A stretch of 64,000 nt of DNA, taken from IMG/VR virus record IMGVR_UViG_3300044700_000691, positions 62,001 to 126,000 of that record; one strand, written 5' to 3'. Numbering within the stretch: the first letter of the stretch is position 1; each line of letters starts with the position of its first letter. A model generated the notes under the pieces. The model did no database searches and was not told the DNA's origin. It worked only from the letters and a program-made list of their open reading frames with translations. The translations under genes and the position numbers were made by a program. This DNA is from a virus. Positions 7,766-47,942 of the stretch are shown here, one piece after another.

Positions 7766-8113
7766 TTATTGAGGCCAATTAGCTTCAATTGGAGAAGACC
7801 ACTCCTCAGTTGCAAGAAGAGCAAGGATTTCCGAATGAGTTAATTCTGGATAAGAGTCACTCCAAACCGAAGGCCTGCCATAGGTTCCGGCTATGGTCGT
7901 AAAAGTCGATTCTTCCATAGATTCAGGATTTAACATTGTTGTGACAATATCTTCTTCGACTACTTGAATTTCATATTTAATAAATGTTTTGGTTCCATCT
8001 AGTGAATATCGTAGGGACTCTTGATTAAATTCTAAAACCTGATCGAAATTGATAGATTCGACTAGGGCAGATGGAATTATTAACCATCTTCTGTTTTCAA
8101 ATGGGGTTTGCAT
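7766..8113 (-). CDS. small protein of unknown function in LamG cluster
   Basis: A 115-residue protein beginning MQTPFENRRWLIIPSALVES. It is acidic, with a central strand-like region (YSLDGTKTFIKYEIQVVEED) and a C-terminal EILALLATEEWSSPIEANWP. No motif is recognised. Its ATG overlaps the stop of the upstream LamG gene as TAATG, so translation is coupled. The small genes at 10918 and 11718 also sit next to LamG genes, and such partners might be assembly chaperones or small structural subunits. That is inference from position only. Confidence 0.65.
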   Translation of the reverse strand: MQTPFENRRWLIIPSALVESINFDQVLEFNQESLRYSLDGTKTFIKYEIQVVEEDIVTTMLNPESMEESTFTTIAGTYGRPSVWSDSYPELTHSEILALLATEEWSSPIEANWPQ

Positions 8114-9681
8114 TATAAATTAAATCTTTTTTTGTATGCTTTAAAGTTTTGAGATACCTCAGCCGCAGTTAGGGCTCTATTATAAAATTTAACAACATCG
8201 ATTAAACCTGCCCAATTATGCCCACCACCTGAGTATCTGGAACCTATACCACGATGGGTTGTACCAGAAGATAGTGTATTAACTGAACCAGTTGAAACTG
8301 ATGCTTCTAGGTTTCCATTTAGGTAAACGCTAACGGTTGAGCCATTCCAACTATATGCTACATGGTAATATCTATTTGCTGTAATGGTAGAGGTTGTTCT
8401 GGCTCCAGTAGTATGGCCGCCGTTTCCATCAAACCAATTTGATCCATTGTGTAAGTCTATTCCAAAAAAAGTTTGACCTCCATAATTGTATAGAGCAATC
8501 CAAGTACTTGCTTCTTGAATATAAAGCTGATTATAAGAACTTGGTAAAGAAGTCGGCTTACAAATAAATTCATAGGTGGCTCGAGTAAAGCCAGATTGTA
8601 AATTTGTTGATAGTGGTATATAGTCATTTGTTCCGTCAAAGGTAAGGGCACCCGCTGAATCAAATGAAACGTTTGCTACATCAAGTATGGCAGATCCAGC
8701 AACAGTAAGCAAAGATTGGGTTGAGCTTCTAGTTCCTGCAACAAATGGCGTTGGATGAGTATTTTTTTCAACCTGAATATTTGCTAAATCGTATTTGTCG
8801 AGTGCGCCTGGCCAAAAATATGAAATTACATTTTCATTAATTGGGGTAAATTGAAAAGACTGTCGTGTCCACACTCCAAGCGGGCCATGTGTATAACCGT
8901 GACCCCAACTCGTTGGGCTAACACTGCCATAATTATAATTTTGCATCGAACCATATGCATTAGCGGTTTGCTTGTTTAGTGCCCTTGTCCAAAATGAATA
9001 GGTATGAACCTGTCCAGGAACAACGACTGCATCTGGTCCATATGACATACCGTCTGCGCTCTCTGGACGGTGTGCATGTAATCGCATGCAATCAGTTTTT
9101 TGAGAAGGATAAAGATCAAATCCTCCAACTATAATTTCTTTTACTAATCCTGAGTTGGGTAGATGTGGAGGACCCCACCACTTAGTCGGAAACCCGCTAG
9201 AATTTACTGAAACCCGCTGATCTAACCAAAATGAATCATGTACTTTGTGTCCTCTTGTTGCAGGATTAATATAACCTTGATCCCCGCCTTGTGAGCCATT
9301 ATATTCATGTAAGCTAAATTGAGTGTTTGAAATTTTCTTAGCAAAGTAATTAACGCCAGCTGTTACCCCACCCCCTGTTGTTTGAGGAGTAATAACATCA
9401 AACGAATAAATTCCATGGGAACCAGCCGTTGTAATAATATTACCAGAAACGCTTGATATAGCTGGAATATCCCAATGTACTGCACAGCCATTATTTCCAC
9501 AATACTTATTTGTATTATAGGTGGCCCAACCGTTACCAAAAGTTGGATAACTGTTTACTTGAGGAGAGGGTATAGTATTTACAGCAGGCTCGCCCTTATA
9601 ACTATTAAAAAAATCTGCAACATCAAACGCAAATATTAATCCAGTTGAAATTTGTCCATTATATCCTTTACGACTTGGCAT
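8113..9681 (-). CDS. LamG/concanavalin-like domain virion protein (type B, longest)
   Basis: A 522-residue protein. The N-terminus MPSRKGYNGQISTGLIFAFD and the following NSYKGEPAVN match the type B family. Residues 80-180 contain a separate beta-rich block (NIITTAGSHGIYSFDVITPQ; GVNYFAKKISNTQFSLHEYN), a module seen in other phage adhesins. A LamG-like domain occupies about residues 335-522 (GALTFDGTNDYIPLSTNLQS ... VVKFYNRALTAAEVSQNFKA). It ends with KKRFNL. It is surface-exposed in the virion by family precedent. Stop and next start form TAATG at 8113. Confidence 0.75.
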   Translation of the reverse strand: MPSRKGYNGQISTGLIFAFDVADFFNSYKGEPAVNTIPSPQVNSYPTFGNGWATYNTNKYCGNNGCAVHWDIPAISSVSGNIITTAGSHGIYSFDVITPQTTGGGVTAGVNYFAKKISNTQFSLHEYNGSQGGDQGYINPATRGHKVHDSFWLDQRVSVNSSGFPTKWWGPPHLPNSGLVKEIIVGGFDLYPSQKTDCMRLHAHRPESADGMSYGPDAVVVPGQVHTYSFWTRALNKQTANAYGSMQNYNYGSVSPTSWGHGYTHGPLGVWTRQSFQFTPINENVISYFWPGALDKYDLANIQVEKNTHPTPFVAGTRSSTQSLLTVAGSAILDVANVSFDSAGALTFDGTNDYIPLSTNLQSGFTRATYEFICKPTSLPSSYNQLYIQEASTWIALYNYGGQTFFGIDLHNGSNWFDGNGGHTTGARTTSTITANRYYHVAYSWNGSTVSVYLNGNLEASVSTGSVNTLSSGTTHRGIGSRYSGGGHNWAGLIDVVKFYNRALTAAEVSQNFKAYKKRFNL

Positions 9682-9694
9682 ATCTTAAATTATT

Positions 9695-10915
9695 TTAACA
9701 GAGGTAGCATCCTCTATTTTCATATCTGATTCGGGTTCTGTTATAAATTTCTAATATCTCAGGTTGAGCTAGGACTCGATTATATGCCAAAGCCATTGGA
9801 ATTTCTCCAAGATATTTAGAGTGGTATTCGCCTCCTATCATTGGCTCAGATCCTAAGTAGGTTCCGCCATAAAATCCGGTATTTACACTGGCAACTTGCG
9901 AGCCGTTTAAATATAGTTTAAGTATACCATCGGTCGATCGTGTACAGGCTAGCATATTCCAACCAGTTGGCGTGCCGCCTCCACCTAGAAGATATTCACT
10001 AGTTCCATTATTGTTTGCAACCCAAGCCGCAATTCCACCATGATAATAACTCATTAACTTAAGGCCAGCTCTATAATCAGGCGATGTGCAAATTAAAGTT
10101 CTATGTGGAGCACCCGTATCGCCATACCACTCAAACCATGCAACTAGAGTTTGATTTTGTGATAAATTTGCGGCAGAAATACCGCTTACCGTTAACCAAT
10201 TATTTGTGCCGTCTAAATAGATTGTGCCATCGCTAAGATAGCCGGCTCTAGTTAAATCAATTTGACCTGTGCCAGTTACATCAAGTAAACCGCCGGTGGT
10301 GCTTCTTGATCCAAGTACAAGCGGCGTTGAAAATCCTTTTTGTTCAAGCTGAAAACCAAAATATGCGAGTTTTTCGCCAACAAAGTCGCCAGTATAGCTG
10401 CTCATATAGAGGCCATTTTCATTAGCTTGGGTTGTTACAGTAGCCGACAGTCTAATCCACTTATGTCTGGGCCAATTTAGGTAATTAGTAGATCCATTAT
10501 AGGCAAATGAGCCAAGCGAATTATTATTAACTGCAGTTCTAACATAAGGCGCAGATGCAAGGGTTGTTCCAGTAAAATAAAAATAAATTGAAAAACTATA
10601 TATTGTACTTGGGCTTACTGGAACAATTGAACTGCCTATATGCTGACTCCCAACTGCAGTTACGGTTGAACTAAAAACTTTAAGACCAGATGTATCGACA
10701 TTTGCAATTACGGGTTTAGCAATTGATGTGTCATTATCATTAAATGTGGTTGATCCACTGTTAGTCCACCAATTTGAGTTGGAATTTAGTGAAGGATTTC
10801 CCGCATACGCTAAATTTGTAGTAGGCGCCCCTAAATATGACGTATTTTTGTCATTTGTATCAAACGCAAAAATTAAGCCGCTTTCGTTATAATCTAATCC
10901 GCTTTTAATTGACAT
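9695..10915 (-). CDS. LamG/concanavalin-like domain virion protein (type B)
   Basis: A 406-residue protein with the type B opening (NESGLIFAFDTNDKNTSYLG). A first beta-rich domain spans about residues 30-200 (carbohydrate-binding-like, with SNWWTNSG and PRHKWIRLSATVTTQ). A second LamG-like domain spans about 225-395 (GTIYLDGTNNWLTVSGISAA ... IPMALAYNRVLAQPEILEIY). Instead of the usual NFxxxKxRxG ending it closes with YENRGCYLC, with two cysteines near the end, which is unusual in the cluster and may allow disulphide or metal contact. Its ATG is two bases from the 40-residue gene's stop. Confidence 0.75.
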   Translation of the reverse strand: MSIKSGLDYNESGLIFAFDTNDKNTSYLGAPTTNLAYAGNPSLNSNSNWWTNSGSTTFNDNDTSIAKPVIANVDTSGLKVFSSTVTAVGSQHIGSSIVPVSPSTIYSFSIYFYFTGTTLASAPYVRTAVNNNSLGSFAYNGSTNYLNWPRHKWIRLSATVTTQANENGLYMSSYTGDFVGEKLAYFGFQLEQKGFSTPLVLGSRSTTGGLLDVTGTGQIDLTRAGYLSDGTIYLDGTNNWLTVSGISAANLSQNQTLVAWFEWYGDTGAPHRTLICTSPDYRAGLKLMSYYHGGIAAWVANNNGTSEYLLGGGGTPTGWNMLACTRSTDGILKLYLNGSQVASVNTGFYGGTYLGSEPMIGGEYHSKYLGEIPMALAYNRVLAQPEILEIYNRTRIRYENRGCYLC

Positions 10916-10917
10916 AA

Positions 10918-11040
10918 TTATTGCTGTGTGGCAGAGTTTGCCTCGGCTTCAGAATAGTAAATACCAATTAAGTCGGCACCCTCTAGAACAAACCAGCATG
11001 GAGTGCCAGCTAAGTCAATTCCGGTTTCTACGTATTTCAT
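10918..11040 (-). CDS. 40-residue small protein
   Basis: The frame from ATG 11040-11038 to TAA 10920-10918 encodes MKYVETGIDLAGTPCWFVLE followed by GADLIGIYYSEAEANSATQQ. The ATG overlaps the stop of the upstream LamG gene as ATGA and the stop is two bases before the next gene, so the spacing is that of a true operon gene. The centre (TPCWFVLEGADLIGIYYS) resembles a small beta-hairpin, and the C-terminal EAEANSATQQ resembles ends of small phage tail accessory proteins (compare NKAKNAAAQP at 11718). Function unknown. Confidence 0.6.
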   Translation of the reverse strand: MKYVETGIDLAGTPCWFVLEGADLIGIYYSEAEANSATQQ

Positions 11041-11714
11041 CGACCGTGTCTATTTTTTTGTGCATTATAGTTTGCTAAAACTTCTTCGCCAGATAAGGCG
11101 CTATTATAAACCCTTATCGCAGAGATTCCGCCAGCAAATTGACGACCGTCGCCTTCCCATCCAACATTACAGTCACTATAGATATAACCAGCCGCTGCAT
11201 AAGTTGCAACAGTATTAACTAGAGTGCCGTTTACATATTGTTTTAGTGTATTGGTTCCTCTATCCCAAACCGACGCCAGGTGGTGCCAAGCTTGTCTGGC
11301 CATGGTTACGCCAGGTTCGTGATATCCTTGGTTTGTGGTTGCATACCAATAATTACTTAATTGTTGATTTCCTTTATTCCAACTTAGATAAGCATAGCCT
11401 TGAAAAATACAACCGCGATCTCCTCCACTTACTTCAGACGCAGCTGGATAAATCCAAGCCTCTAGTGTAAGTGAATTCATGTATTGGGCTGTACCAAATC
11501 TAATTACAAACCTGTCGCCGACCCCATCTAGATTAAAACACGTTGCACCGCCTAGTGTAGTATTAACTGGGCTGCCATAAATATCTGCATAGAATCCATT
11601 ACCGCTAATATCAGACCAAATTGCGCCAGATCCAGGGTAACTATTAACGTCACCTGCATCCAGGGCTAGGAGTAAATTTCGGGTAGTTATTCTTGGATTA
11701 TAGTGTAGTGCCAT
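11037..11714 (-). CDS. LamG/concanavalin-like domain virion protein (type A)
   Basis: A 225-residue single-domain LamG protein beginning MALHYNPRITTRNLLLALDA, with GDVNSYPGSG matching the type A paralogue at 7026. It has the canonical LamG core: SLTLEAWIYPAASEVSGG, then WHHLASVWDRGTNTLKQYVN and a C-terminal IRVYNSALSGEEVLANYNAQ. The strand pattern and the VNGxLVN loop are the same as in host-derived LamG modules. Binding of a host surface glycan or decoration of the virion is inferred. It ends in RHGR-TGA overlapping the small gene. Confidence 0.78.
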   Translation of the reverse strand: MALHYNPRITTRNLLLALDAGDVNSYPGSGAIWSDISGNGFYADIYGSPVNTTLGGATCFNLDGVGDRFVIRFGTAQYMNSLTLEAWIYPAASEVSGGDRGCIFQGYAYLSWNKGNQQLSNYWYATTNQGYHEPGVTMARQAWHHLASVWDRGTNTLKQYVNGTLVNTVATYAAAGYIYSDCNVGWEGDGRQFAGGISAIRVYNSALSGEEVLANYNAQKNRHGR

Positions 11715-11717
11715 AGA

Positions 11718-11969
11718 TTAAGGTTGAGCCGCTGCATTTTTTGCTTTATTGTGAAATAAGAGAGCATAGTACATAAAGGTATGAGTATAGATTCCATACT
11801 CTGGGGCACCAATATGAATTGGTCCGTTTTCACGTTCACAAATAAAGAATATAGTTGAGTTTACATCAACTATTCCAACGATTTTAAATCTGGAAACTGC
11901 TCCAATGTTGTAGTATGTGTCTAATTCATAGACAGCATCTTCGATTTGATATGTTTGTAAGTTTTGCAT
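11718..11969 (-). CDS. small protein of unknown function
   Basis: An 83-residue protein beginning MQNLQTYQIEDAVYELDTYY, beta-strand rich (VSRFKIVGIVDVNSTIFFIC), ending NKAKNAAAQP. Start and upstream stop overlap as TAATG (11969). No motif is recognised. With the 40- and 115-residue proteins it is one of three small genes inserted among the LamG genes. Confidence 0.65.
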   Translation of the reverse strand: MQNLQTYQIEDAVYELDTYYNIGAVSRFKIVGIVDVNSTIFFICERENGPIHIGAPEYGIYTHTFMYYALLFHNKAKNAAAQP

Positions 11970-13285
11970 TATTCGAATCCTCCCATTTTTCTATTATGTG
12001 ATACAACTTCACCGATAACATAGGTGTGAGCTTGGTCAACTTCAATTTGAACTACTTCCATTTCTCCAATTGATTCAATCGATTCAATTTCGGCAAGTCC
12101 ATTTACTGTTTGTACTTTAGCACCTATCCATAGTTCGGATAGTGCAATAAAGCCCATACTTTCGGTTAAAAATTTGTGATTACTTGATACTTTAAGTTCT
12201 TGGCCTCCAATTACAGTACGGCTAACCATATTAGTTCCAGGATTAACTGCGGTCACCCTGTATGATCCCCATTCACCAGTTGTTTCGTGTTTAGTGTAAA
12301 CATAATCTCCAATAGTAAGCTCTCCAGCGGTCACCCAAGTATTAGGATTAATTAAGATTGGCATATCTGGAGTAGGGCAGAATGTTCCACATATTTGATT
12401 AAGATCTGCATATGCTCCATATAATTGAGATATTCCACAGAAAACAAGTTCTCCATAACAACACGAATACCCAGAGACAGGATTATCTAAACAGTCTCGA
12501 CCTTCCCAATATCCACTACCATCTGAAAAGAAATTATAACAGTTATTAGCAGGAGGTTGATATCCACATGTTGTAGAATTGCTTTCAGCCAGAGAAGAAT
12601 AGGTTCCATTACAACCATTTGAATAAGTATAGTAAAGATCAAATCCTGAGCAATAACTGCTTAGATAAGTTCCATTTGCTGGCGAACAGCAACAGCCGCC
12701 GCATGCAGTGGTACAACCTTGACTTACATCATAGGTTCCGCAGCTACCGTTTGCATATCGATAATAAAGAGTACACCCTGAACAAAATTGACTTAAGTAG
12801 GTGCCATTTGCTGGGCAGCCTGCGCTGGTCGTAATCGTTAAAATATTTGAATAACCCGAATAACCACCGGTTGAGGTACAGGTTATTCGCACTCTTATTA
12901 AATAGGTCATGCTTGAGGCAAGTCCACTAATAGTTCTGGTTGCTGAGCAGCCTCCAGAATCTGTGCTCCAGGTCGAACCGTCGTTTGCACTAGATTCAAC
13001 GTGCATAGTTGTACAATTTGAATAGCTAACATTAATTGTAATTGAACTTGATGTAACTGAATTACTGGAAATACTAGGAGCATTGCAGCAAGCAAACGTG
13101 TGATTATAGTTACGCCACTCAGATATTGAAGCTGGGTTAGCTGAAGAAGGAAAGCTTGGTGAGCACGAATTAATCGCAGCATAACTACCATTCTCAGCTG
13201 AGTCTAGACTAATATTTGTACCAGCTGCACGGCCAAGCTCTGTATTGATTTGGCTCATTGAAACCGTAGTCGCGCCTAGTGCCAT
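11969..13285 (-). CDS. Cys-rich tail protein with FN3-like domain and C-terminal Hint (intein/hedgehog) domain
   Basis: A 438-residue protein in three parts. Residues 1-60 have the start VSMSQINTELGRAAG and ASISEWRNYNHT, which resembles a recurrent phage tail-fibre opening. Residues 66-155 look like an FN3 domain, including CTTMHVESSANDG and GLASSMTYLIRV. Residues 157-300 are Cys-rich with two copies of PANGTYLSxxCSGxxLYYxY. Residues 303-431 form a Hint fold: candidate first Cys C303 (TFC-PTPDMPI), a central strand region with GELTIGDYVY, block-B-like SSNH (H370), block-F-like AHTYVIGE (420-426) and terminal H430-N431. There is no room for a homing endonuclease. The residue after N431 is Arg, not Cys/Ser/Thr, so splicing is not expected; N-terminal and/or C-terminal self-cleavage is. 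Only seven residues follow. It lies next to the 2240-residue S74 fibre. Confidence 0.8.
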   Translation of the reverse strand: MALGATTVSMSQINTELGRAAGTNISLDSAENGSYAAINSCSPSFPSSANPASISEWRNYNHTFACCNAPSISSNSVTSSSITINVSYSNCTTMHVESSANDGSTWSTDSGGCSATRTISGLASSMTYLIRVRITCTSTGGYSGYSNILTITTSAGCPANGTYLSQFCSGCTLYYRYANGSCGTYDVSQGCTTACGGCCCSPANGTYLSSYCSGFDLYYTYSNGCNGTYSSLAESNSTTCGYQPPANNCYNFFSDGSGYWEGRDCLDNPVSGYSCCYGELVFCGISQLYGAYADLNQICGTFCPTPDMPILINPNTWVTAGELTIGDYVYTKHETTGEWGSYRVTAVNPGTNMVSRTVIGGQELKVSSNHKFLTESMGFIALSELWIGAKVQTVNGLAEIESIESIGEMEVVQIEVDQAHTYVIGEVVSHNRKMGGFE

Positions 13286-13286
13286 A

Positions 13287-16200
13287 TTATTCGCCTCTTA
13301 ATTTTTTAACCTCTAATTTAAGATCTTCTATTTGTGCCTGTTGCTCTTTAATAGCCTCAATTAAGAGTGCAGTCATGTTACCATAAGAAACATTATACAT
13401 TCCAGCGTTATCTTGATTTACAACTTCTGGAACAACTTCTAGCGTTTCTTGTGCAATAACTCCAATCTTAGTTCGAGTATCATCAGAATCAGTTCGGTTA
13501 TAAGAAACTCCACGTAGTGCTAAGGTTTTTGCTAGAGCATTTTCAATTGTATGTATATTGGTTTTAACTCTGGCATCTGAGTATGCTGTTACATCTCCAG
13601 CCATTGTAAGATTACCAGACATATCCATTTGCAATCTATTAGTAGATGCTGACCAACCACCAATGCGCATTACATTATCTGAGTCTAAACCAAAGTTTAC
13701 AGCATAATATCCCCCTCTATGAAAAGACATTATTGCACCACCACCATTATTTGAATATGCTTGTAAAGGAGCTGAATCTGTACTTGTATTTCTATTAGAT
13801 ACAAAATAATTTTGTCCTGTCCAACTATGACCATTACCTAATGAATTAGATATGCTGTTAGTATTACCTACTGTTTGAGATGCAATATTGTATGCTGTAA
13901 TAAATTCATAAAATGTACCATATGATGTAGATGTAGAAGCTTGAACACTTATTGCCATTCTTGGTGTACCATTTCTTAATGTATGTAAAGCACACATTTG
14001 AAGTACATCACCACCAGAATAACCATTAATCCAAAGTGTATCTGACCATACAGACCAAGCTCCTGTCATAGCAGCTTTTAATCCAATACCATTATTAAAA
14101 TATACTTGAGGATTAGTTTGTTGACCTCCAGCATAAGCTGTAGCTAAATATGTTGAATAACCACCAATATTTGTTTGGTCTCCAGTATTTGTACCAGAAG
14201 AAGAACCTGAATGGGAACCGCTAAAGTTTGATGAGGCAAAGGTTCCAGCTATCTGCATATTACCAGATGTAGCGTTTATTGCAGCTATTGGAGCATAAGA
14301 TATTCTACCCCAAGTAAATCCTCTACCTGCATCCCCATCATTCATTTGTGTTTTGATAGAATAATCATTAACCGGTCCATACTGATACAATGAAGATGAA
14401 CCCATACTAATTTTATAAGAATCCGATGACCAAAGCTTTAAACCATTACCTTCGCCTGGTGTCACATTATAGAAGGAGTTCTGATTACTTGCGTTTGGCG
14501 CGGAACCTGCGCTATTTGCATATCTTACACCAAGATCAGAAGGTTCAATCCAACCACTTCCTGAATATGCTCCATTATTATAAACGTATCTAGAGTAATC
14601 AACATAATTTCGACCTTCTCCTCTTGAAATAGCTACACGGGAACTAGCGTCAAACAGAGCCCCGGCATATAAATTATTAGCAGCTCTAACGTGTGAATCT
14701 CCATTGCCGACTGAAAATAATTCAGTTGCCATAGTAGAATCATCATAGAATCTAGTTCCACCATATCCAGTATTTGCTCCGATCTTAATTCCAGTGTGAT
14801 ATCCTATATGTAGATCTGGGTAAGGGTGACTCCAGCCTCCTCCACCTTGATAAATTGCATATGAGTGATTACTTGTGTTACCAGAATCTCCACCGACTCC
14901 AGTAAATCTTAGAACACGCAGAGTTCGATCTTCGTTATCTCTAAAATATGAAAAATTATTAATTTCAGTCTCAGTATAGTATCTGTCATCATGTGTATGT
15001 GAAGAAGCGGCCCATCCTCCGTAATTTCCTAAGTCATTTGAGAATTGAGAAAGAGCAGTTGGTCTACCTGTAACGCCGGTCCATGCAACATTGGTTGCAG
15101 TTGCAGCGTTTCCTGAAATATTTGTTTGATCACCAGTGTTTGTACCGCTTAAATTAGCTGCAAACCAGTTACCACTATTATCAGCATAAGCTCCCCAACT
15201 GTTAGATGAAGTTAAGAAACCGATTCTTCCACTATTACAGTGTATTCTTCTTGTAGTTTCATCTGTATCAGTCATGTAGATATCTGATGATGTACTATTA
15301 CCCACGGTTAGCGATCCATAAACTTGAACTCCTCCAGTATCTACTCTAACTCTCCAGCTATCTGTACTATCTAATAGTCCAAACCCTGCAGCATCTCCAT
15401 ACACTGATCCTTTAAGAGTACTTTCATGGTTAAGTCTAAATTGTAAGTGCACAACTGATCCGCCATTACCTGTAATACCCCATATAGAGCCTCCTCTTGA
15501 GTAAAAGTGATTTCCATTTGCCTGATTATAGAGACCAGTATTGTTTGAATTATTTCGGAACCAGCTGTTATTGTATAAGTCAGTAAAGGTTGGAGATGAT
15601 GAAGTTAGGAGAGCTTGGTTTAGATAACTAGATAACCAGGTTCCTCTGGTTCCAAAGTAAATATCGCCATTTACTAAGAAACTGCCATTTGTTCGTATAC
15701 CTGCATTAGGCGCATCTCCATAGAAATAGTAGGTTTCATTACCTACATAAATATTTGAGTCAAATCTAGCAGAACCTCCGCTATAAACCATTTTATTTCC
15801 GCGTACTCTTAGATAGGTACCGTCAGTCATAAACCAGCCGCCGCCCCAGCCAAAGGATAGGTCTTCATCTTTAAGGTAAGTTGAGGTACCTCGACCAAAC
15901 ACAATACCATCGTTATTGCCTAATAATTGAATTGAGCCATTTACATAAAGTCGGTTATTGGTTGGAACTCCAGTTGCACCAGAGTTATCAGAGGCAGTAT
16001 AAGAAAAATCAGTTGTTCCAAATCCAACCCGGCCGTCTTGGCCTACATAGATTGCATTTGTTCCAAACTTACCAATTTGTACAACATTGTTTGCAAATAC
16101 TTCAAGTACAGGTAAACCTGCAAGGGTATTTACGCTATATAGAGAATCTGAAAGATCATCAACTACTGTAAATAGTCGACCGTTAATTCCATTTACAGCA

Positions 16201-19200
16201 AAAGCTTCAGCTCCTTGGCTTGGGCTATTAATCGTTAAGGCACCGGTCATAGTGTCTCCGCTTACATTAACATATAAATTATCTGCAGTTGCTTGTGATA
16301 ATCCGCTTGAAGACAAAGTTACAGAGTTTCCGCCTGAAATACTTAGGGTATTTCCACTAAGGCTTAAGGTTTGACCATCAGTATTTGTGTCTGTATCAAT
16401 ATCATTAAATGCAGCAGTTAAGGTTGAACCATCACCTTGAGTTAAGGTTAAGGTTTTTGTACCAGTGCCGCTAAATGAAATTGCAGTAGGTCTCTTATCA
16501 TATGCAGTATTCCAGTTTGTTGAATTTCCTCCTGTTGCTGTGATAACTCCTACCGTCCAGATACCATAACCAATAGCTGTTTGGGTACTGCCATTAGCCA
16601 TAAATAGTGCTTGGTGTCCTAATCCAGATTTAGATTGTCCTCCTACATTTGTATGTGTCCATGCAATACCATAAAGAGATCCGGGAGAAGTACCATCGGC
16701 AGATACTTTGTAAGCATCTCCCATTGCAAATACACCCTGGTATCGATCGGAAGCATACAGGCCAACTATACCATTACCATAGTTATCGTCTATATAAAAA
16801 TTACCATTAGCTCGAGTTGCTCTTGCTGCAGTACCCGATACATTAATACTCCAAGTACCACTATTATAAACATAGGCAGTACCGTCTGAGTGTTTTAGTC
16901 TACCTCCATATATGTAAACGGTTCCGCCGCCATTACCAAAATACATATCACCACTTGAGTAATGATTAAAATACATTTGATAAACATTGCCTGCTCCACC
17001 TCTTGTGTCTATATGTAAATTACCGTTAGAAGTTCTAATACGAGCGTATGTTGTATCAGTCGACCAACCGCCAAGATGTAAAGCTGCCGCAGCACTATAT
17101 GAGCTAGCTCCGTATAGAATTAATGCAGTAGCATCACCATTTACAATTGTATTTGTAATATTTGTATAAACTCCATTTGTAACAGAACCGGCATTACCTG
17201 AAATATTAGTAACACTAGTTAAATATCCACTGTTATTAGTAAACTGAGAAATATTCATTGAACTTAGAGCGCCGGCTGTAGCTACAGTTTGTGAACCAAT
17301 GTTTGCTGAAGTTATTACAGCACTACCGTTCGCATACAATGTTCCGCCAATAGCAGCATAAGTATTTCCAGAAGTATCTATTTTAAATCTTTCTGTACCC
17401 CATCCATCTGAAGTTGAGTTATTATTTCTATAACCCATGTTTTGAGTAACACGAAAGTTATCATCATTAGAACAATATCCTACATTCCATCTAGTATCAT
17501 TACCTCCATATGAAAATTGAATAGATGGTCTATCAGAATCGGCAGTATTTATTCTATATCTAGCTACAATACCCCAAGAGTGATTACCTCTATCAGATTC
17601 AAAACTGTATGGAATAAAGTCTCCAGTTGCTGATTGTAAAGTTATCCATTTTCCAGATTGTCCATGGCTCGCTGTACCAACGTTACTTCTATGAAACTCA
17701 GAACCATCACTCCAATATTCATGACCCGCGCCTCCAGAAGGGGCTGCCGCTATATAGGTGTGACCATATATCCAGTTATCAGCGCCCGCTGTTGAAATAC
17801 CATTAGGAAAGAATGCAGAATCGGCAGTGTTCCAAGGATTTCCAGGACTTATGTAACCGCCTTTTGCATAGATAACATCTGTGCTAGGATTTACATAAAC
17901 GTGGGTTGTCCCATAAACATTATTACCAGAACCCCATAATAATTGATATGTTGAGTTTGAATTATTATCATAATTTATAGTTACTTGTGAAGATGTTCCT
18001 GCAATATTTGCATAGGCAACTCGTACACCAGCTGGAGTACCTGGAGAAACTTTAAGTTCCCAGTAACTACCACCATCATAGTTCATGTACATATAGTATG
18101 GAGCAGCTCCGCCGTAAACATAACTTCCATCACTAGCATATAATCGTGTAGAGTTTGTTGCGTAAGTAACAGATTGAGAACCAATATTACCGGTTGTGAT
18201 TAATCCTAAGTTTGATATAAAGTTTGCTGGAGTTTGATAACGCATATAGTCATCATCAGAACAATATATTTTATTTATACCACTTGAAAATGCTCCAGAA
18301 GTTGTGTTAATCCATCCCGCTTGAATATATCCATTGGCATCTGTTCTTACAATTTTGTTTACTTCATTGTTTCTACCACCGTGTACTGCTAACCCACCTG
18401 CTGTTGTAGCATTGCTTACAGACTGAGAGCCAATATTACCGGTTGTGATTGCGTCAGTAATGCCATAACCTGAAATTGTAGTTGGTTTACTGGTTAATGA
18501 AGCAAATGTATGCGAATGTGATATTGCTGCATATCTACCATCTAACAAAGATTGTTTCTTAGTTCGGAGACCATCTATACGTGATGAATTGACTGCAGCT
18601 AATCCTAATGGAGCAGGCGCAGGGACATCATATTGATTTGTACCTGACCAAGCATCATCATAAGATAATGTACTTGAACTATATAAAATGTCAGGTGAAC
18701 CGCTTTGATAAAAACCATTAATTGGTTGATCAGAAAATAGGTGATAAACTGCGCCACCTCCACGTAACATAAAGACATACCCCATTGAGTGGCTATATAT
18801 GAACATATCGGCGCATACGTTTGTATAAGATTCGTTAAATACTCGTAAACGATCTGCATATTCAGCACCGCCCCATCCACCAAAATTACCTTCCCAATCT
18901 AAGAGAAGACCTCCATGGTGAACACCTGTTCCAATTGGATCCCAAGGAGCAGGTTCACCATATCCGCGCTTAATAATAATTCTACGCCAAACATCCTGAT
19001 CTCCTCCCCAAAACTGAACAGCATAAAATCTGTCAGGGTCTCCATCAACTGTAATGTCAACAGAATATGGTAAGGTTGTAACGCCTAACATATTAGATAG
19101 GCCGTTAACTTTAGTCCCAGTTAATTGAGATCCACCTAGATATACACTGCTAAATGAAGGGGCACTGTCTGTTCTAACATTTTGATTTAGATAAGTAGAT

Positions 19201-20009
19201 AACCAATTTCCTCTAGTTCCCAAGTAAATATCTCCATTTGCTAAGAAATTACCATTGGTTCTGATACCAGAGTTTCCGGTATCGCCATAGAGGTAATACG
19301 AACCCTGTGAACCAACTGCTGCATTATTATAGCCAGGATAATATGGATGAGTTGAAAGTAGGTCTCCAGTTAGGGTTCCGCCTGAAAGTAATAAGTATCT
19401 ACCATCGTGGTTATGCGAAGGAAGACTTGTTAAATAACCCGCACTTGCATGGTTACCCCATCCGTATGCAGTGTTCCAATTTGAGGCATTATATCCAGAG
19501 GCAGAAATGGTACCAGTAATAGTTAAATTACCACCGTCCATGTCTAAAATTACGCGGCTTGTTCCTCCACCAACAAATTCAAAATCATTGTTATCACCAT
19601 TCCATCTTAAACCCCAGGCATTAGCAGCGGTTGCGTGCGAAGGATAATAATCTCCAGAGATACCCCAAATATCAAAGTTACCATCGCCTACATCTAAACC
19701 AACTATACCGCCAGGAAATCGTGGACGATTTGCTACCGCGGATGGAAATGTTATTTTTCCAGTTATTGTATCGCCAGCCTTTGAAACTTTACCTGCAAGT
19801 GAGCTCGTAAGTGTTGATGAAAAACTTGCATCATTTCCTAAAGCTGCTGCCAACTCATTAAGAGTATCTAGCGCGCCAGGGGCACCATTAATTAAGTTAT
19901 TAATTTGTGTTGTAACATAAGACGTTGTCGCAATGCTGTGAGCCGCTAGGTTTCCAGCATGGATCGCGCTGTGTCCAGCAATTGTAGTTCCTGATATTAA
20001 TTGTGCCAT
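13287..20009 (-). CDS. giant tail fibre with S74 self-cleaving chaperone domain (2240 aa)
   Basis: A 2240-residue repetitive fibre. It starts MAQLISGTTIAGHSAIHAGN, then has a cassette ALDTLNELAAALGNDASF and many GTN, TGNIGSQSV and NISGNAA repeats typical of trimeric beta-structured phage fibres. Several cassettes are shared with the 1960-residue fibre immediately downstream. The last 97 residues (from S2144) form an intramolecular chaperone of the peptidase S74 type: SDARVK with S2144 and K2149 as the candidate Ser/Lys dyad, a strand-turn core (RTKIGVIAQETLEVVPEVV) and a terminal coiled-coil helix (EQQAQIEDLKLEVKKLRGE). In the family, this domain trimerises the fibre and then cuts itself off before the Ser. 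It probably binds the host; receptor unknown. Confidence 0.85.
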   Translation of the reverse strand: MAQLISGTTIAGHSAIHAGNLAAHSIATTSYVTTQINNLINGAPGALDTLNELAAALGNDASFSSTLTSSLAGKVSKAGDTITGKITFPSAVANRPRFPGGIVGLDVGDGNFDIWGISGDYYPSHATAANAWGLRWNGDNNDFEFVGGGTSRVILDMDGGNLTITGTISASGYNASNWNTAYGWGNHASAGYLTSLPSHNHDGRYLLLSGGTLTGDLLSTHPYYPGYNNAAVGSQGSYYLYGDTGNSGIRTNGNFLANGDIYLGTRGNWLSTYLNQNVRTDSAPSFSSVYLGGSQLTGTKVNGLSNMLGVTTLPYSVDITVDGDPDRFYAVQFWGGDQDVWRRIIIKRGYGEPAPWDPIGTGVHHGGLLLDWEGNFGGWGGAEYADRLRVFNESYTNVCADMFIYSHSMGYVFMLRGGGAVYHLFSDQPINGFYQSGSPDILYSSSTLSYDDAWSGTNQYDVPAPAPLGLAAVNSSRIDGLRTKKQSLLDGRYAAISHSHTFASLTSKPTTISGYGITDAITTGNIGSQSVSNATTAGGLAVHGGRNNEVNKIVRTDANGYIQAGWINTTSGAFSSGINKIYCSDDDYMRYQTPANFISNLGLITTGNIGSQSVTYATNSTRLYASDGSYVYGGAAPYYMYMNYDGGSYWELKVSPGTPAGVRVAYANIAGTSSQVTINYDNNSNSTYQLLWGSGNNVYGTTHVYVNPSTDVIYAKGGYISPGNPWNTADSAFFPNGISTAGADNWIYGHTYIAAAPSGGAGHEYWSDGSEFHRSNVGTASHGQSGKWITLQSATGDFIPYSFESDRGNHSWGIVARYRINTADSDRPSIQFSYGGNDTRWNVGYCSNDDNFRVTQNMGYRNNNSTSDGWGTERFKIDTSGNTYAAIGGTLYANGSAVITSANIGSQTVATAGALSSMNISQFTNNSGYLTSVTNISGNAGSVTNGVYTNITNTIVNGDATALILYGASSYSAAAALHLGGWSTDTTYARIRTSNGNLHIDTRGGAGNVYQMYFNHYSSGDMYFGNGGGTVYIYGGRLKHSDGTAYVYNSGTWSINVSGTAARATRANGNFYIDDNYGNGIVGLYASDRYQGVFAMGDAYKVSADGTSPGSLYGIAWTHTNVGGQSKSGLGHQALFMANGSTQTAIGYGIWTVGVITATGGNSTNWNTAYDKRPTAISFSGTGTKTLTLTQGDGSTLTAAFNDIDTDTNTDGQTLSLSGNTLSISGGNSVTLSSSGLSQATADNLYVNVSGDTMTGALTINSPSQGAEAFAVNGINGRLFTVVDDLSDSLYSVNTLAGLPVLEVFANNVVQIGKFGTNAIYVGQDGRVGFGTTDFSYTASDNSGATGVPTNNRLYVNGSIQLLGNNDGIVFGRGTSTYLKDEDLSFGWGGGWFMTDGTYLRVRGNKMVYSGGSARFDSNIYVGNETYYFYGDAPNAGIRTNGSFLVNGDIYFGTRGTWLSSYLNQALLTSSSPTFTDLYNNSWFRNNSNNTGLYNQANGNHFYSRGGSIWGITGNGGSVVHLQFRLNHESTLKGSVYGDAAGFGLLDSTDSWRVRVDTGGVQVYGSLTVGNSTSSDIYMTDTDETTRRIHCNSGRIGFLTSSNSWGAYADNSGNWFAANLSGTNTGDQTNISGNAATATNVAWTGVTGRPTALSQFSNDLGNYGGWAASSHTHDDRYYTETEINNFSYFRDNEDRTLRVLRFTGVGGDSGNTSNHSYAIYQGGGGWSHPYPDLHIGYHTGIKIGANTGYGGTRFYDDSTMATELFSVGNGDSHVRAANNLYAGALFDASSRVAISRGEGRNYVDYSRYVYNNGAYSGSGWIEPSDLGVRYANSAGSAPNASNQNSFYNVTPGEGNGLKLWSSDSYKISMGSSSLYQYGPVNDYSIKTQMNDGDAGRGFTWGRISYAPIAAINATSGNMQIAGTFASSNFSGSHSGSSSGTNTGDQTNIGGYSTYLATAYAGGQQTNPQVYFNNGIGLKAAMTGAWSVWSDTLWINGYSGGDVLQMCALHTLRNGTPRMAISVQASTSTSYGTFYEFITAYNIASQTVGNTNSISNSLGNGHSWTGQNYFVSNRNTSTDSAPLQAYSNNGGGAIMSFHRGGYYAVNFGLDSDNVMRIGGWSASTNRLQMDMSGNLTMAGDVTAYSDARVKTNIHTIENALAKTLALRGVSYNRTDSDDTRTKIGVIAQETLEVVPEVVNQDNAGMYNVSYGNMTALLIEAIKEQQAQIEDLKLEVKKLRGE

Positions 20010-35451: not shown

Positions 35452-36492
35452 TTATTGGAAATATTGGAACATGGTATTGTAACCACCGCCAGAAGATTCA
35501 GAGTATTGACCAGAACCTCCACTGCTGTAACTGCTGTAACTGTTGCCGCCGCTGTATGTATAAGTTTGGCTCGTAACAGGTGCAGTATAGCTAAACACTA
35601 AGTCAATCTCAGTAATAGTTGTGTTGCCTACACTAATTGCATCTGCAAGTTCTTGAGTAAATGGTTGACTCGTTGAAGTTGTACTAACTGGTAAAGGCGA
35701 CTTCTTTTGCCAATATGAAAACGAATATCCAGAAGGAAGAGATGAAGATATTGATACACTTACATTTTGACCACTTGTAAATTGTCTAATAATTTGATTA
35801 GAGTTACCCGATTGCGGGCTACCCGAAGCTCCGTTTAGCGTAATTGTAATATATTGAGATAGTGTACTCGATGAAATTGACGACAAGTTTGTTTTAAGCA
35901 GATTTACTTTAAAAATACCTCCATTATATGTAGCAGCTGATGCAGATGCTCCAACTGCTGGGGCATAGTTTGCAGAAATAATTCTCCAAGTATAGGTCTG
36001 AGGAGTAGCTAAGGCACGTGATGTACGTTGACACTGAACTACCACTGAATTAATTGGTAAATTTGCAACGGTTGTAATTGCCGCGCTAGTTGAAGGCAGG
36101 GCCGATAGTGTAACTACAGTTGTTTCGGTTCCTCCACTTGTAAATTTAACAGCAAGGGTCGAACTTTTTTGGTTAGTCAAAACATATGTTCTGTGTAGAA
36201 CGCTTGCAGTAGGCGATGGTAAAGTAATACCAGTAATTGCACTAGTTGATCCAACATATACTCCATAATGACCGTTAGTTAACTCTAATAGGCCTGATTT
36301 TTCACTGCCGAAGTATGCAACATTCGGTAAGCTTAGCGATCCATTAAGCATGAAGTGCGAAGTTGGATTAGAAAGAACTGCATCCATGGTTGCATCTTCA
36401 TAATAGTTAAATTTTCCAGCCGCCATTCTGCCATCTCTGGTAACGGTAAACTTAACTGCTTTAAGTATATTTGATAAACTTAATGTTTTCAT
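35452..36492 (-). CDS. fibre-like structural protein with G/S/Y-rich tail
   Basis: A 346-residue protein. It begins MKTLSLSNILKAVKFTVTRD and includes beta-rich repeats (FTSGGTETTVVTLSALPSTS). The C-terminal approximately 40 residues are low complexity, rich in Gly, Ser and Tyr (SGGNSYSSYSSGGSGQYSES), like a flexible surface tail. No catalytic motif is visible. It follows the 537-residue collagen-like gene in the same direction with a 14-bp gap, so both are in one operon. A fibre tip or accessory protein is likely. Confidence 0.65.
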   Translation of the reverse strand: MKTLSLSNILKAVKFTVTRDGRMAAGKFNYYEDATMDAVLSNPTSHFMLNGSLSLPNVAYFGSEKSGLLELTNGHYGVYVGSTSAITGITLPSPTASVLHRTYVLTNQKSSTLAVKFTSGGTETTVVTLSALPSTSAAITTVANLPINSVVVQCQRTSRALATPQTYTWRIISANYAPAVGASASAATYNGGIFKVNLLKTNLSSISSSTLSQYITITLNGASGSPQSGNSNQIIRQFTSGQNVSVSISSSLPSGYSFSYWQKKSPLPVSTTSTSQPFTQELADAISVGNTTITEIDLVFSYTAPVTSQTYTYSGGNSYSSYSSGGSGQYSESSGGGYNTMFQYFQ

Positions 36493-44267: not shown

Positions 44268-47200
44268 TTACATAAAATTAGTTAGAGAAGAGTTCAGTGA
44301 TAAATTAAATGCTGAGCTTCTAAGAATATCAGTTAAATCTGATATGTAAACTCCGCCTCCGCCTGATCCGCCGTGTGGCGTAAATATAGTTGGCGAAGTA
44401 ATAATTGTATCACGCTGATGCTTACCACTAACCTGTATATCGAACTCAAATAATCCACTCTTAGTGTAAATATCAAGTCCAATAATTTTTGTATATGTAA
44501 TATTAGTTAATTTTTGACCGGTTGACCAACCTCCAATTTCACCGATTTTATCAGTGGTTCTAAATTGGAAAACTATTGGAACTGTTATTGAAGCAGCAGA
44601 TCCAGCAGAAACCGTTCTTTTTGACGATCTTGAGTTTGATCCATCTACTGAAATAGAGGCATATGATTGCGGCATCATAAATAAGTACGATCCGCAGGTT
44701 TTTGCACCAATTAGATAATCATCGCCAGTCCCAAATCCAATTTTAATTGGAAAAGTATTTAGCGCTGAATATAATACGTCGCTATATGCATAAGGCGATT
44801 CTGGGGTTACCCTTTCCGCTTGTGCATAGTATGGAACTCCAAATTCATTGGTTCCTGCTTCTGCGCTTGTGTTAAAGTGAACCGCGTGAGAAAAAGGTAA
44901 ATATACTTGACTTGTATTTGTGATAGCATTTCCTGAAACTTCGTATGGTGCGCTTGCACTAAGGCCTAAGAAATTATTACCATTGAATGAACCGTTTCCT
45001 AAGTTTTTAAGGAATGGGTGATCTTTATGAATACAGAATTCAGTAAGGGTTCCACCTCCAGCCGGAACGCCGCCGCTAAGGCTGCCATTCCAAACATCAA
45101 GAGCTCCTGCTGCTCCAGGAATAGATGGAATATAGTGTCCACCCATATAGTTAGGTTTTCCAGGGACTACGTTTACCGTATCAGTAAATTTATAGTTTTG
45201 GTTAGTTGCATAAGATGACACATTGATACTAGACGTTGAAGCAGATTGGTCTAGCATATCTCCAAAATAGAGACGTTTACTATTATCTGCGTTAAAGTAT
45301 CTAGCATAAATATATTGGCTTTTTACTTGGGATGATTGATAGCCGGTTCTTTGTGTAAATGCAGCAAAGCCTGCTCTAGAAACTCCATTTAAATTAATTG
45401 GAGCTTTATCGTATCTTAAATATGTATTGTATTGAGTATCAGTATTTGCACCTGGGAAAGATGTTGGTGCAGCCACTCCAATTCCTCCGCCTAAGGTTGA
45501 AATTAATTCAAGCGGGGTTTGTGAAGCATTTCTAATCTTAACTTGATATTCTTTAGATACAACTTTACCTTTATCTAAAGAACCGTCTGTTAATTTAGCA
45601 GAGTCTACATAATATCCAGCAAACAAATCAACGGTTTGACCATTTGTAACCTGTACTTCGCTACCCTCTGGGGTAATTATGCTAATAATAAGTTCAGCTG
45701 TTGCGGTAGAAAGAGACGCTTGAATTGCTGAAAGAGACTCTGATATTTCTTTTAACTTATCGTATAAAGAAATAGCGGTGCCGTCTGCTAAAAAGAATCC
45801 TGACGCAACCGCATCTGTTGTATGTGAATAATACTTATCTTTACTAGTAAAGGCGGTAGATAGGTGAAGATCTAATCCTCTAGCATTTAATTCTTCCTGT
45901 AGGGAAATTCTGCTCTCGTCTGCCATTGCCTGCTGAGCAATAAGGGTATTTTCTTCTGCTGATTGAATATTTGATGGAAAGTCTATTGTAATAGCGTCAG
46001 ACCACTCTGATTCAACTGGATTATCTGGAAAACCTGCTTCAGAAAGAGATTTAATTTTAATTTCAACAGATTCACCTTTTCTAATTGCAATATCCAATTG
46101 ATTAATATTAACTGATTCCGGATCTGCAACATTTTCCTCAGTCCATTCGTAAAGACCAGTTGTTGAGTTATATGTCTTTTGCTTAGCCTTTGTTAAAGTC
46201 TCTGTCCATGGAGAAAAATAGCCAGTTCTTTGAGTTCCAGCTGCATCTGTAAATGTAATAGGGTCGGCAGCGGCTGCATCTTTGTTTAAACTTAGATACC
46301 TATATGCAATTTTGAACTGAACTGTTTTTTGTAAGCCGTACGGCGAATCAATATCAGCTGGAATTTCCCAAAATCCTCTAACTCGATATTTAGGGGAAAC
46401 GCTAAATTCTGGTGAAGTTTTTACGTTTAGGGAAAGTTCTTTAACTACTGTAGATAATTGAGAAAATGACTGCGATCTTGCTGAAGTTTTATTATTTAAA
46501 TCAGATTGTGCTTTAAGTCGAATTGCATCATTTTGATTACCTGATGAGTTAATTGTCTTTTTAAGAGTATCAATAGATTTGTCCAATTCTCTTAATTGAG
46601 AATTAATTGATTCCTTTTGTGAAACTAGAGTTTTTACCGTAGACGCAGAGTCCGTATTAGTTACGTGTGAATCTATTTGTAAAACTTTAAAATTTGCTGA
46701 ACTAAGCGTTGGTGCATTTGGCTGAAATCCTAGAGAATTCGGCAATTTCTTTTCCTTTGCGAATGATAAAAATAATAGGCCAAAGTCTGCAACAAAATTA
46801 TTGTAGTATTCGTTTAGCGTTAAATTTTGACCGCTTTGTAGAGTAATTTGCAATTCATTTGTGTAAATTCCAAATCCGTTTGAAATAAAATCAACAGTTA
46901 AGTCCATTTTTGAACTTATTGGTTTTATAAAAATTACTTCGCGTTCGTTATATCCAATGTTTACAGCAAGGGTTGGAGATCTATATAGTTCAGGTTTAAT
47001 TCTTAAGTTTTCAAAAAGAACAATTCCATCTGATCCAAATACTCTTTTTAAAATAACTGATTTATCTTTAGTATCAACTGACTCAACTAGATATTCTGAA
47101 TTTTCTTCAGTTATTACTCTAGCGCCAACCGATAATTCTCTTCGCTGTGCAGCTGGAGTAGATCCAGTTACATCGGTGTATTCTAATTTATCAAGAACGT

Positions 47201-47942
47201 ATTTTACTTTACTGTAACTTAGGATTTCGCCGTTAATAGTTTCAGGCACAGTTATTTCAGAAATAGTTTGAACTTTAAACGTTCCACGATATCTGTTAAT
47301 TGCTCCAGGTAAATCTACAATATTGGTATCTTCAAAATAAGAAATTCCAGCATTTACTAAATCATTTAATAGAGTTGTGTAATTAACGGAATTTTTACCT
47401 TTGTAATTATTATTAAAAAATGTAATTAAGTCAGTATCTTCTCCAACATTTACAATAACTCTTCTAATTTCAAACTTAGAAATATCATCTGATACATAAT
47501 TAGTTACGTCAATTGGAACATATAGTAGTGGGCTAAGGAAACTCTCAAAAAACCAGTTATTTTTGGTTTTAAATCTGGTTGGTAAACCTAAACTAGCATC
47601 TCCGATTTTTTCAAGATCTGAAATAGTTTTAGTTATGTCGTTAAGCTCAAATCGTTTAACGTTGCCTTGATCGTCCTTAACTCCAATTGTATTACCGTTT
47701 GCGTTAAGAAGAGTCTTAAATTTAGTATCGATTTCTTCAATACGACCATTCATATATCCAATTGATGGAATTGGAATAGTTGTACTTAAAGTTGGATCAT
47801 CTGCATCGATTCGAGTAACTTCAACTTGGCTAGAATTTGTAGTTAGAGCCTGATTCATTTTTGAAATAAGCTCTTGTGCGTTAGCGGTTTGTACGCCAAG
47901 CGAATTTAAGATCTCTGATAAAGAATTAGTTCCTTCAGCCAT
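44268..47942 (-). CDS. large virion structural protein with coiled coil (1224 aa)
   Basis: A 1224-residue protein beginning MAEGTNSLSEILNSLGVQTA. A coiled-coil/helical segment is visible at about residues 440-490 (LVSQKESINSQLRELDKSID then TLKKTINSSG). After it, residues about 520-650 look like an Ig/FN3-type domain (VQFKIAYRYLSLNKDAAAAD, ESVEIKIKSLSEAGFPDNPV). The C-terminal about 350 residues are beta-rich. No motif identifies an enzyme. Its start overlaps the preceding stop as TAATG (47942), so it is translationally coupled to the 709-residue gene. A tail-, baseplate- or fibre-associated protein is inferred from context. Confidence 0.65.
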   Translation of the reverse strand: MAEGTNSLSEILNSLGVQTANAQELISKMNQALTTNSSQVEVTRIDADDPTLSTTIPIPSIGYMNGRIEEIDTKFKTLLNANGNTIGVKDDQGNVKRFELNDITKTISDLEKIGDASLGLPTRFKTKNNWFFESFLSPLLYVPIDVTNYVSDDISKFEIRRVIVNVGEDTDLITFFNNNYKGKNSVNYTTLLNDLVNAGISYFEDTNIVDLPGAINRYRGTFKVQTISEITVPETINGEILSYSKVKYVLDKLEYTDVTGSTPAAQRRELSVGARVITEENSEYLVESVDTKDKSVILKRVFGSDGIVLFENLRIKPELYRSPTLAVNIGYNEREVIFIKPISSKMDLTVDFISNGFGIYTNELQITLQSGQNLTLNEYYNNFVADFGLLFLSFAKEKKLPNSLGFQPNAPTLSSANFKVLQIDSHVTNTDSASTVKTLVSQKESINSQLRELDKSIDTLKKTINSSGNQNDAIRLKAQSDLNNKTSARSQSFSQLSTVVKELSLNVKTSPEFSVSPKYRVRGFWEIPADIDSPYGLQKTVQFKIAYRYLSLNKDAAAADPITFTDAAGTQRTGYFSPWTETLTKAKQKTYNSTTGLYEWTEENVADPESVNINQLDIAIRKGESVEIKIKSLSEAGFPDNPVESEWSDAITIDFPSNIQSAEENTLIAQQAMADESRISLQEELNARGLDLHLSTAFTSKDKYYSHTTDAVASGFFLADGTAISLYDKLKEISESLSAIQASLSTATAELIISIITPEGSEVQVTNGQTVDLFAGYYVDSAKLTDGSLDKGKVVSKEYQVKIRNASQTPLELISTLGGGIGVAAPTSFPGANTDTQYNTYLRYDKAPINLNGVSRAGFAAFTQRTGYQSSQVKSQYIYARYFNADNSKRLYFGDMLDQSASTSSINVSSYATNQNYKFTDTVNVVPGKPNYMGGHYIPSIPGAAGALDVWNGSLSGGVPAGGGTLTEFCIHKDHPFLKNLGNGSFNGNNFLGLSASAPYEVSGNAITNTSQVYLPFSHAVHFNTSAEAGTNEFGVPYYAQAERVTPESPYAYSDVLYSALNTFPIKIGFGTGDDYLIGAKTCGSYLFMMPQSYASISVDGSNSRSSKRTVSAGSAASITVPIVFQFRTTDKIGEIGGWSTGQKLTNITYTKIIGLDIYTKSGLFEFDIQVSGKHQRDTIITSPTIFTPHGGSGGGGVYISDLTDILRSSAFNLSLNSSLTNFM

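Follow-up and report, generated by a model that had tools for sequence, protein, structure and literature searches.

The window analysed here, 64,000 nucleotides of the virus record IMGVR_UViG_3300044700_000691 (positions 62,001 to 126,000 of its 216,815 bases), carries on its minus strand a gene for a 438-aa tail protein that terminates in a Hint (intein/hedgehog) domain (Table 1). The record contains one Hint of the lysine-bearing family described below. The gene sits in a tail-fibre/baseplate operon, its neighbours matching fibre, baseplate and structural families, which agrees with the fibre-operon location given in an earlier, sequence-only reading of this DNA. The adjoining 2240-aa fibre gene (13287-20009, minus strand) has a C-terminal Peptidase_S74 self-cleaving chaperone, and the two neighbouring tail genes thus terminate in unrelated self-processing domains. 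Three successive genes at 8113-11714 (minus strand) share the structural families phrog_8510, phrog_24074 and phrog_17347 and apparently represent a duplicated fibre series.

Table 1. Features of the Hint-bearing tail protein gene, in window coordinates
Feature	Position	Strand	Basis or remark
438-aa tail protein gene with C-terminal Hint	11969..13285	minus	stop codon counted; homologues L001-L006
N-terminal segment, residues 1-65, starting MALGATTVSMSQINTELGR	13091..13285	minus	conserved across all homologues (alignment)
FN3-like beta domain, residues ~70-153	12827..13078	minus	weak phrog_4971 match and AlphaFold2
Cys-rich repeats, residues 155-302	12380..12823	minus	alignment, sequence
Hint domain C303-N431, 129 aa	11993..12379	minus	phmmer, residues, AlphaFold2, Foldseek
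Cys303 (Cys1), predicted thioester nucleophile	12377..12379	minus	Cys in 190/197 family members listed
Glu334 (Hint position 32), family motif TxHE	12284..12286	minus	acidic in nearly all members
His370, block B His	12176..12178	minus	His in 119/122 members
His420 of AHTY, block F	12026..12028	minus	alignment
His430-Asn431, predicted C-terminal cleavage site (Asn cyclisation)	11993..11998	minus	sequence, alignment
Lys433 (+2), proposed acyl acceptor	11987..11989	minus	Lys conserved in family
C-terminal tail RKMGGFE, 7 aa	11972..11992	minus	sequence

Residues 1-65 are probably the virion-attachment part of the protein. The tail family phrog_4971 weakly matches residues 77-155, and the full-length AlphaFold2 model is poor (pLDDT 41) with the FN3-like beta domain as its sole confident part, so that, for the N-terminal part, the domain plan depends solely on the alignment and on that segment. 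Of the Cys residues, 24 fall in the N-terminal portion taken as a whole and a single one in the Hint.

The Hint assigned to the end of this protein by the sequence-only reading is confirmed, with phmmer, AlphaFold2 and Foldseek in agreement with the residues that it named: C303, H370 (in VSSNHKF), H420 (in AHTYVIGE) and H430-N431 all stand where it had placed them. Block B, with S367-x-x-H370, has the [TS]xxH pattern. A phmmer search against the PDB matched residues 322-431 to the bacterial intein-like (BIL) domain 2lwy (E = 3.3e-5), and both Pfam matches were sub-threshold (PT-HINT, 18.8 bits against a cut-off of 27.7; Intein_splicing, 16.1 against 35.8), so routine annotation would overlook the domain. 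The structure prediction that the same reading had proposed as a check gave a confident model, built on a 42-sequence alignment, with a mean pLDDT of 89.8 and most of the core at 95-98. Foldseek ranked 2lwy first in the PDB (E = 6.4e-10, TM 0.77/0.86) and BIL2 of Tetrahymena BUBL1 second (6y75, 6tmm; E about 1e-9, the second-best match at 9.8e-10), followed by inteins, with hedgehog only at ranks 37-39 (1at0 at 39); BILs and inteins head the 62 PDB matches with E <= 0.001. We are confident from the model that the domain adopts the Hint horseshoe fold. Its dN/dS is 0.16-0.21, and it evolves under purifying selection.

Intein chemistry in general proceeds from Cys1 to a thioester, and Asn cyclisation cuts on the C-terminal side (PMC4031507). 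A-type BILs are defined by an HN end without a nucleophilic +1 residue (PMC4031507); the domain described here ends in HN followed by Arg, and by this sequence definition it may work like an A-type BIL. It shares with C. thermocellum BIL4 (2lwy) the Hint fold, Cys1, the block B His, the HN end and a +1 residue other than Ser, Thr or Cys, and with A-type BILs generally a modular position in variable, surface-type proteins (PMC4031507, PMC5874633). Unlike A-type BILs, the family to which it belongs keeps a Lys invariantly one to three (rarely four) residues past HN and has a TxHE motif, at whose site the aligned 2lwy has no HE; most members stand last in a phage tail protein, followed by a tail of 2-20 residues.

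Other Hint classes fit less well. Canonical phage inteins (of terminase, portal, RecA-like and helicase proteins) belong to the same superfamily and also end in HN, but they lie within conserved enzymes, score far lower with the family HMM and carry Thr or Cys at +1 in 8/8 cases from annotated enzymes. A canonical intein is ruled out by R432 at +1 and by the C-terminal position, with seven residues following and Hint-free homologues that end near the domain boundary. The PT-HINT domains of polymorphic toxins have the fold and the weak Pfam match in common with it but stand mid-protein with a toxin following, and Lys is mostly absent from +1 and +2 of the toxin-like Hints; this class is ruled out here, with no domain past N431. 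The hedgehog Hog domain (1at0) shares the fold and the possibility of thioester release of the N-terminal part, and is excluded because only RKMGGFE follows, with no sterol-recognition region, and because the HN is kept.

The Hint is a module that comes and goes. Five whole-protein homologues of the 438-aa protein have it (one identical; two mutually identical), while homologue L006, 63% identical over residues 1-279, lacks it and stops about ten residues or less from the Hint boundary. Elsewhere in the window, a 346-aa protein (35452-36492, minus strand) and a 1224-aa protein (44268-47942, minus strand) have no Hint, and their homologues L007 (65% identical) and L118 (30% identical) each have one at the C-terminus. 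These three pairings show gain or loss of the module at tail-protein C-termini. Between the window and homologue L002, pS is 0.28 in the Hint and its tail (11972-12379) versus 0.67 in the remainder of the gene, a difference that points to movement of the module by recombination and to its recent exchange.

Related domains were collected by methods blind to the residues after HN: DNA patterns that stopped at the HN codons, and a profile (A6) made from the domain minus its tail. The DNA pattern recovered at least 120 stretches in IMG/VR and 11 in species genomes (0 in a first scan of these, 11 in a second), variants of its first codon gave 32, 74 and 16 stretches, and A6 added members from Sphingomonadales and Myxococcota genomes. 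Cultured bacteria that carry the family include Stakelama pacifica, Anaeromyxobacter sp. PSR-1 and Pyxidicoccus caerfyrddinensis. The pattern scans demanded AHTY-type and HN motifs at one spacing, and members lacking them are under-sampled in the resulting set of 197 unique domains listed (72 clusters at 60% identity), which come from phages and prophages. These lysine-bearing tail Hints apparently constitute a large, widespread and undescribed family. No curated family in Pfam, NCBIfam or PHROGs covers the set, its weak matches being split among PT-HINT, Intein_splicing and intein-containing enzymes. In the open-access literature, to which the search was confined, neither Hints on phage tail proteins nor a lysine at +1/+2 turned up, nor did any report of cleavage of this family, and the T1 tail-tip paper has no information on cleavage of gpI; the claim to priority is accordingly tentative. 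Among cultured phages, tblastn found one unannotated faecal phage record (a gpJ-like protein), the remaining matches being canonical inteins, and this near absence may explain why the family was overlooked.

The proteins that bear these Hints are unrelated to one another and include lambda-type tail assembly protein I (gpI-like; phrog_32, E = 2e-54), gpJ-like tips (phrog_5616, phrog_31), phrog_376 tail proteins and collagen-like fibres. The domain is usually attached via Gly-, Ser- or Pro-rich linkers, and several genomes have two Hint tail proteins. On one contig, a gpI-like protein and a second large protein encoded about 4.6 kb apart (L197 and L203) both end in a Hint with HN-x-K, a type of pair seen in Myxococcota prophage-like loci of several genomes. 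Single proteins may also contain family Hints in tandem (L129, L094, L156, L278 and L336), spaced about 5-55 residues apart and with some copies degenerate.

The hallmark of the family is a lysine just past the predicted cut site. All 190 Cys1-bearing members listed have Lys within +1 to +4 of HN, 189 of them at +1 to +3 (+1, 81; +2, 104; +3, 4; +4, 1), counts that come from related, non-independent sequences and carry no formal probability. In the first set, 105 of 105 unique domains (50 clusters) had Lys at +1, +2 or +3, compared with a background of 2.6% Lys at the remaining tail positions. Every member of the profile-found genome set scoring above 75, the cut between the family and inteins that was chosen after inspection of the data, keeps the lysine, and the polymorphic-toxin-like Hints from the same profile search have mostly Cys, Asn, Gly or other residues at that site. 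The +1 residue of the family is either Lys itself or a non-nucleophile with Lys at +2. In a quick tree with modest branch support, the lysine shifted position at least 20 times and was never lost where Cys1 is present; it is retained even where myxococcal members have Arg or Lys for the block F His. The shortest tails read Phe-Lys-stop (L171) and Ala-Thr-Lys-Leu-stop (L104), and tails this short imply that the lysine works with the Hint and not within a released protein. Beyond the phages, lower-scoring alphaproteobacterial Hints (L220, L221, L223 and L211) end in HN-[WSR]-K, some of them preceding a DLDGDG-type region, and the terminus of L211 is HN-K-stop, so that the lysine feature may extend past phages.

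The sequence-only reading described a non-splicing Arg at +1 followed by a tail of only seven residues, RKMGGFE. Arg and tail are correct, but Lys433 comes next to R432, and with a lysine at +1 to +3 as a family hallmark the tail is not meaningless. Its statement that standard splicing is impossible does not exclude splicing as such, since A-type BILs ligate weakly in the absence of a +1 nucleophile, via the alpha-amine released by Asn cyclisation (PMC4031507). It had likened a possible reactive thioester to the one with which hedgehog attaches cholesterol; we prefer a nearer precedent, Tetrahymena BIL2, which is reported to link a C-terminus to a lysine epsilon-amine through an isopeptide bond (PMC8616854). 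The earlier interpretation as a whole is therefore partly supported.

Seven of the 197 domains listed lack Cys1. Two of these are internal and have RR in place of the lysine, a substitution confined to Cys1-less degenerate domains of one internal lineage in a multi-Hint protein. The other five (L096, L120, L155, L325 and L328) lie at the extreme N-terminus of their proteins and keep HN with a nearby Lys, although L096, L120 and L155 also lack the block B His; they are possibly C-cleavage-only domains. Within the aligned set, Gln takes the place of the acidic TxHE residue in just four Hints, all N-terminal and preceded by at most 11 aa, and this restriction to Hints without an N-extein can, as a sequence pattern, be counted in favour of the lysine as acceptor.

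We propose that the Hint appended to this tail protein is an autoprocessing domain akin to the A-type BILs. As the conserved residues suggest, Cys303, assisted by His370, would attack the 302-303 peptide bond, leaving the tail-protein body with a C-terminal thioester. The epsilon-amine of Lys433, possibly activated with the help of Glu334, would then attack this thioester in the role of the intein Ser/Thr/Cys+1, and cyclisation of Asn431, predicted from the invariant HN, would release the Hint. The product would be a tail-protein C-terminus isopeptide-bonded in cis to the short-tail lysine or, alternatively, in trans to a lysine of a neighbouring subunit or of a second Hint-bearing tail protein, and hydrolysis of the thioester would yield a trimmed tail protein as a by-product. 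Autoprocessing, which the sequence-only reading had called plausible, we regard as likely given a true Hint in a tail gene with intact residues at its N-terminal (C303, H370) and C-terminal (H430, N431) sites. That the conserved lysine is the acyl acceptor in this A-type-BIL-like processing comes close to an even call; the fuller proposal, in which a lysine 1-4 residues past His-Asn is a splicing nucleophile and tail proteins become isopeptide-ligated in cis or in trans, is put forward somewhat more tentatively.

The shifting position of the lysine is what a long and flexible nucleophile would lead one to expect, in contrast to a catalytic residue with a set place, and the alpha-amine route, which needs no specific +1 residue, leaves the conserved lysine unexplained. 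BIL2, the next-best fold match, shares the Hint fold and makes lysine isopeptides, an analogy that may be counted for a lysine acceptor; in the present family a conserved Lys is available. BIL2 differs, however, in being eukaryotic and zinc-regulated, in its sequence (15-16% identity) and in the place of its acceptor lysine, which lies in the following ubiquitin-like domain of the BUBL1 polyubiquitin locus or in other substrates and not directly after HN. The Hint fold is common to all inteins, and likeness of fold to BIL2 is therefore non-discriminating. The main point against an acceptor role is that the Cys1-less N-terminal Hints keep their lysine with little upstream to transfer, where it would be either a relic or an aid to Asn cyclisation. 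A product formed in cis would, moreover, bear only a branched peptide of 2-20 residues, without obvious benefit.

This retention of HN and Lys also suits a rival scheme, in which the domain is a cleavage-only A-type BIL: it would cap the C-terminus or assist folding within its own molecule and then excise itself through hydrolysis of the N-terminal thioester and cyclisation of Asn, while the lysine would tune that cyclisation or dock the tail, for instance against Glu334, and would not be a nucleophile. BILs yield chiefly cleavage products, the Hint-free homologues stop close to the Hint boundary, and the Peptidase_S74 of the adjacent gene is an analogous C-terminal, self-removing chaperone on a phage fibre, albeit of unrelated fold and chemistry. 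We consider this scheme a realistic, if somewhat doubtful, possibility: a docking or charge role does not readily explain a lysine at +1, +2, +3 or +4, and the confinement of the Arg substitution to a Cys1-less lineage is hard to account for. The freedom of the lysine across these positions and its loss together with Cys1 in one lineage lead us to favour a lysine acceptor over cleavage alone. Were the lysine only structural, the C-terminus of the tail protein might instead be passed, as in hedgehog, to an outside nucleophile, either another protein of the virion or an amine, sugar or lipid on the host surface. The almost invariant Cys1 and block B His are compatible with such a transfer, as are the location on tail tips and fibres and the Gly-rich linkers ahead of Cys1 (26 of 50 cluster representatives have three or more Gly among the ten residues that precede the Hint), but it is unlikely for a domain that stops at HN and a short tail, has no sterol-recognition-like region and, unlike hedgehog, keeps the HN for C-terminal cleavage. 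Least probable is a degenerate or selfish intein remnant that performs no useful reaction and is tolerated at the C-terminus; its patchy presence in the same gene, the absence of a homing endonuclease and the degeneration of some members would fit, but purifying selection on the Hint and the near-invariance of Cys1, HN and Lys across 72 clusters do not.

Few bacterial intein-like domains have, to our knowledge, a known role in nature. The Hint family accounts for tail-protein C-termini left blank by annotation, and its abundance in uncultured phages, on receptor-binding and tail-tip proteins, makes virion maturation or cross-linking the role to test. A near-universal lysine 1-3 residues past the predicted cut site suggests that the domain may join proteins, beyond removing itself, and presents lysine as an intein nucleophile as the candidate chemistry at the splice junction. 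The family could supply new protein-ligation tools and, if the proposal is true, would represent a lysine-dependent new mechanistic class of protein splicing that acts in virion assembly.
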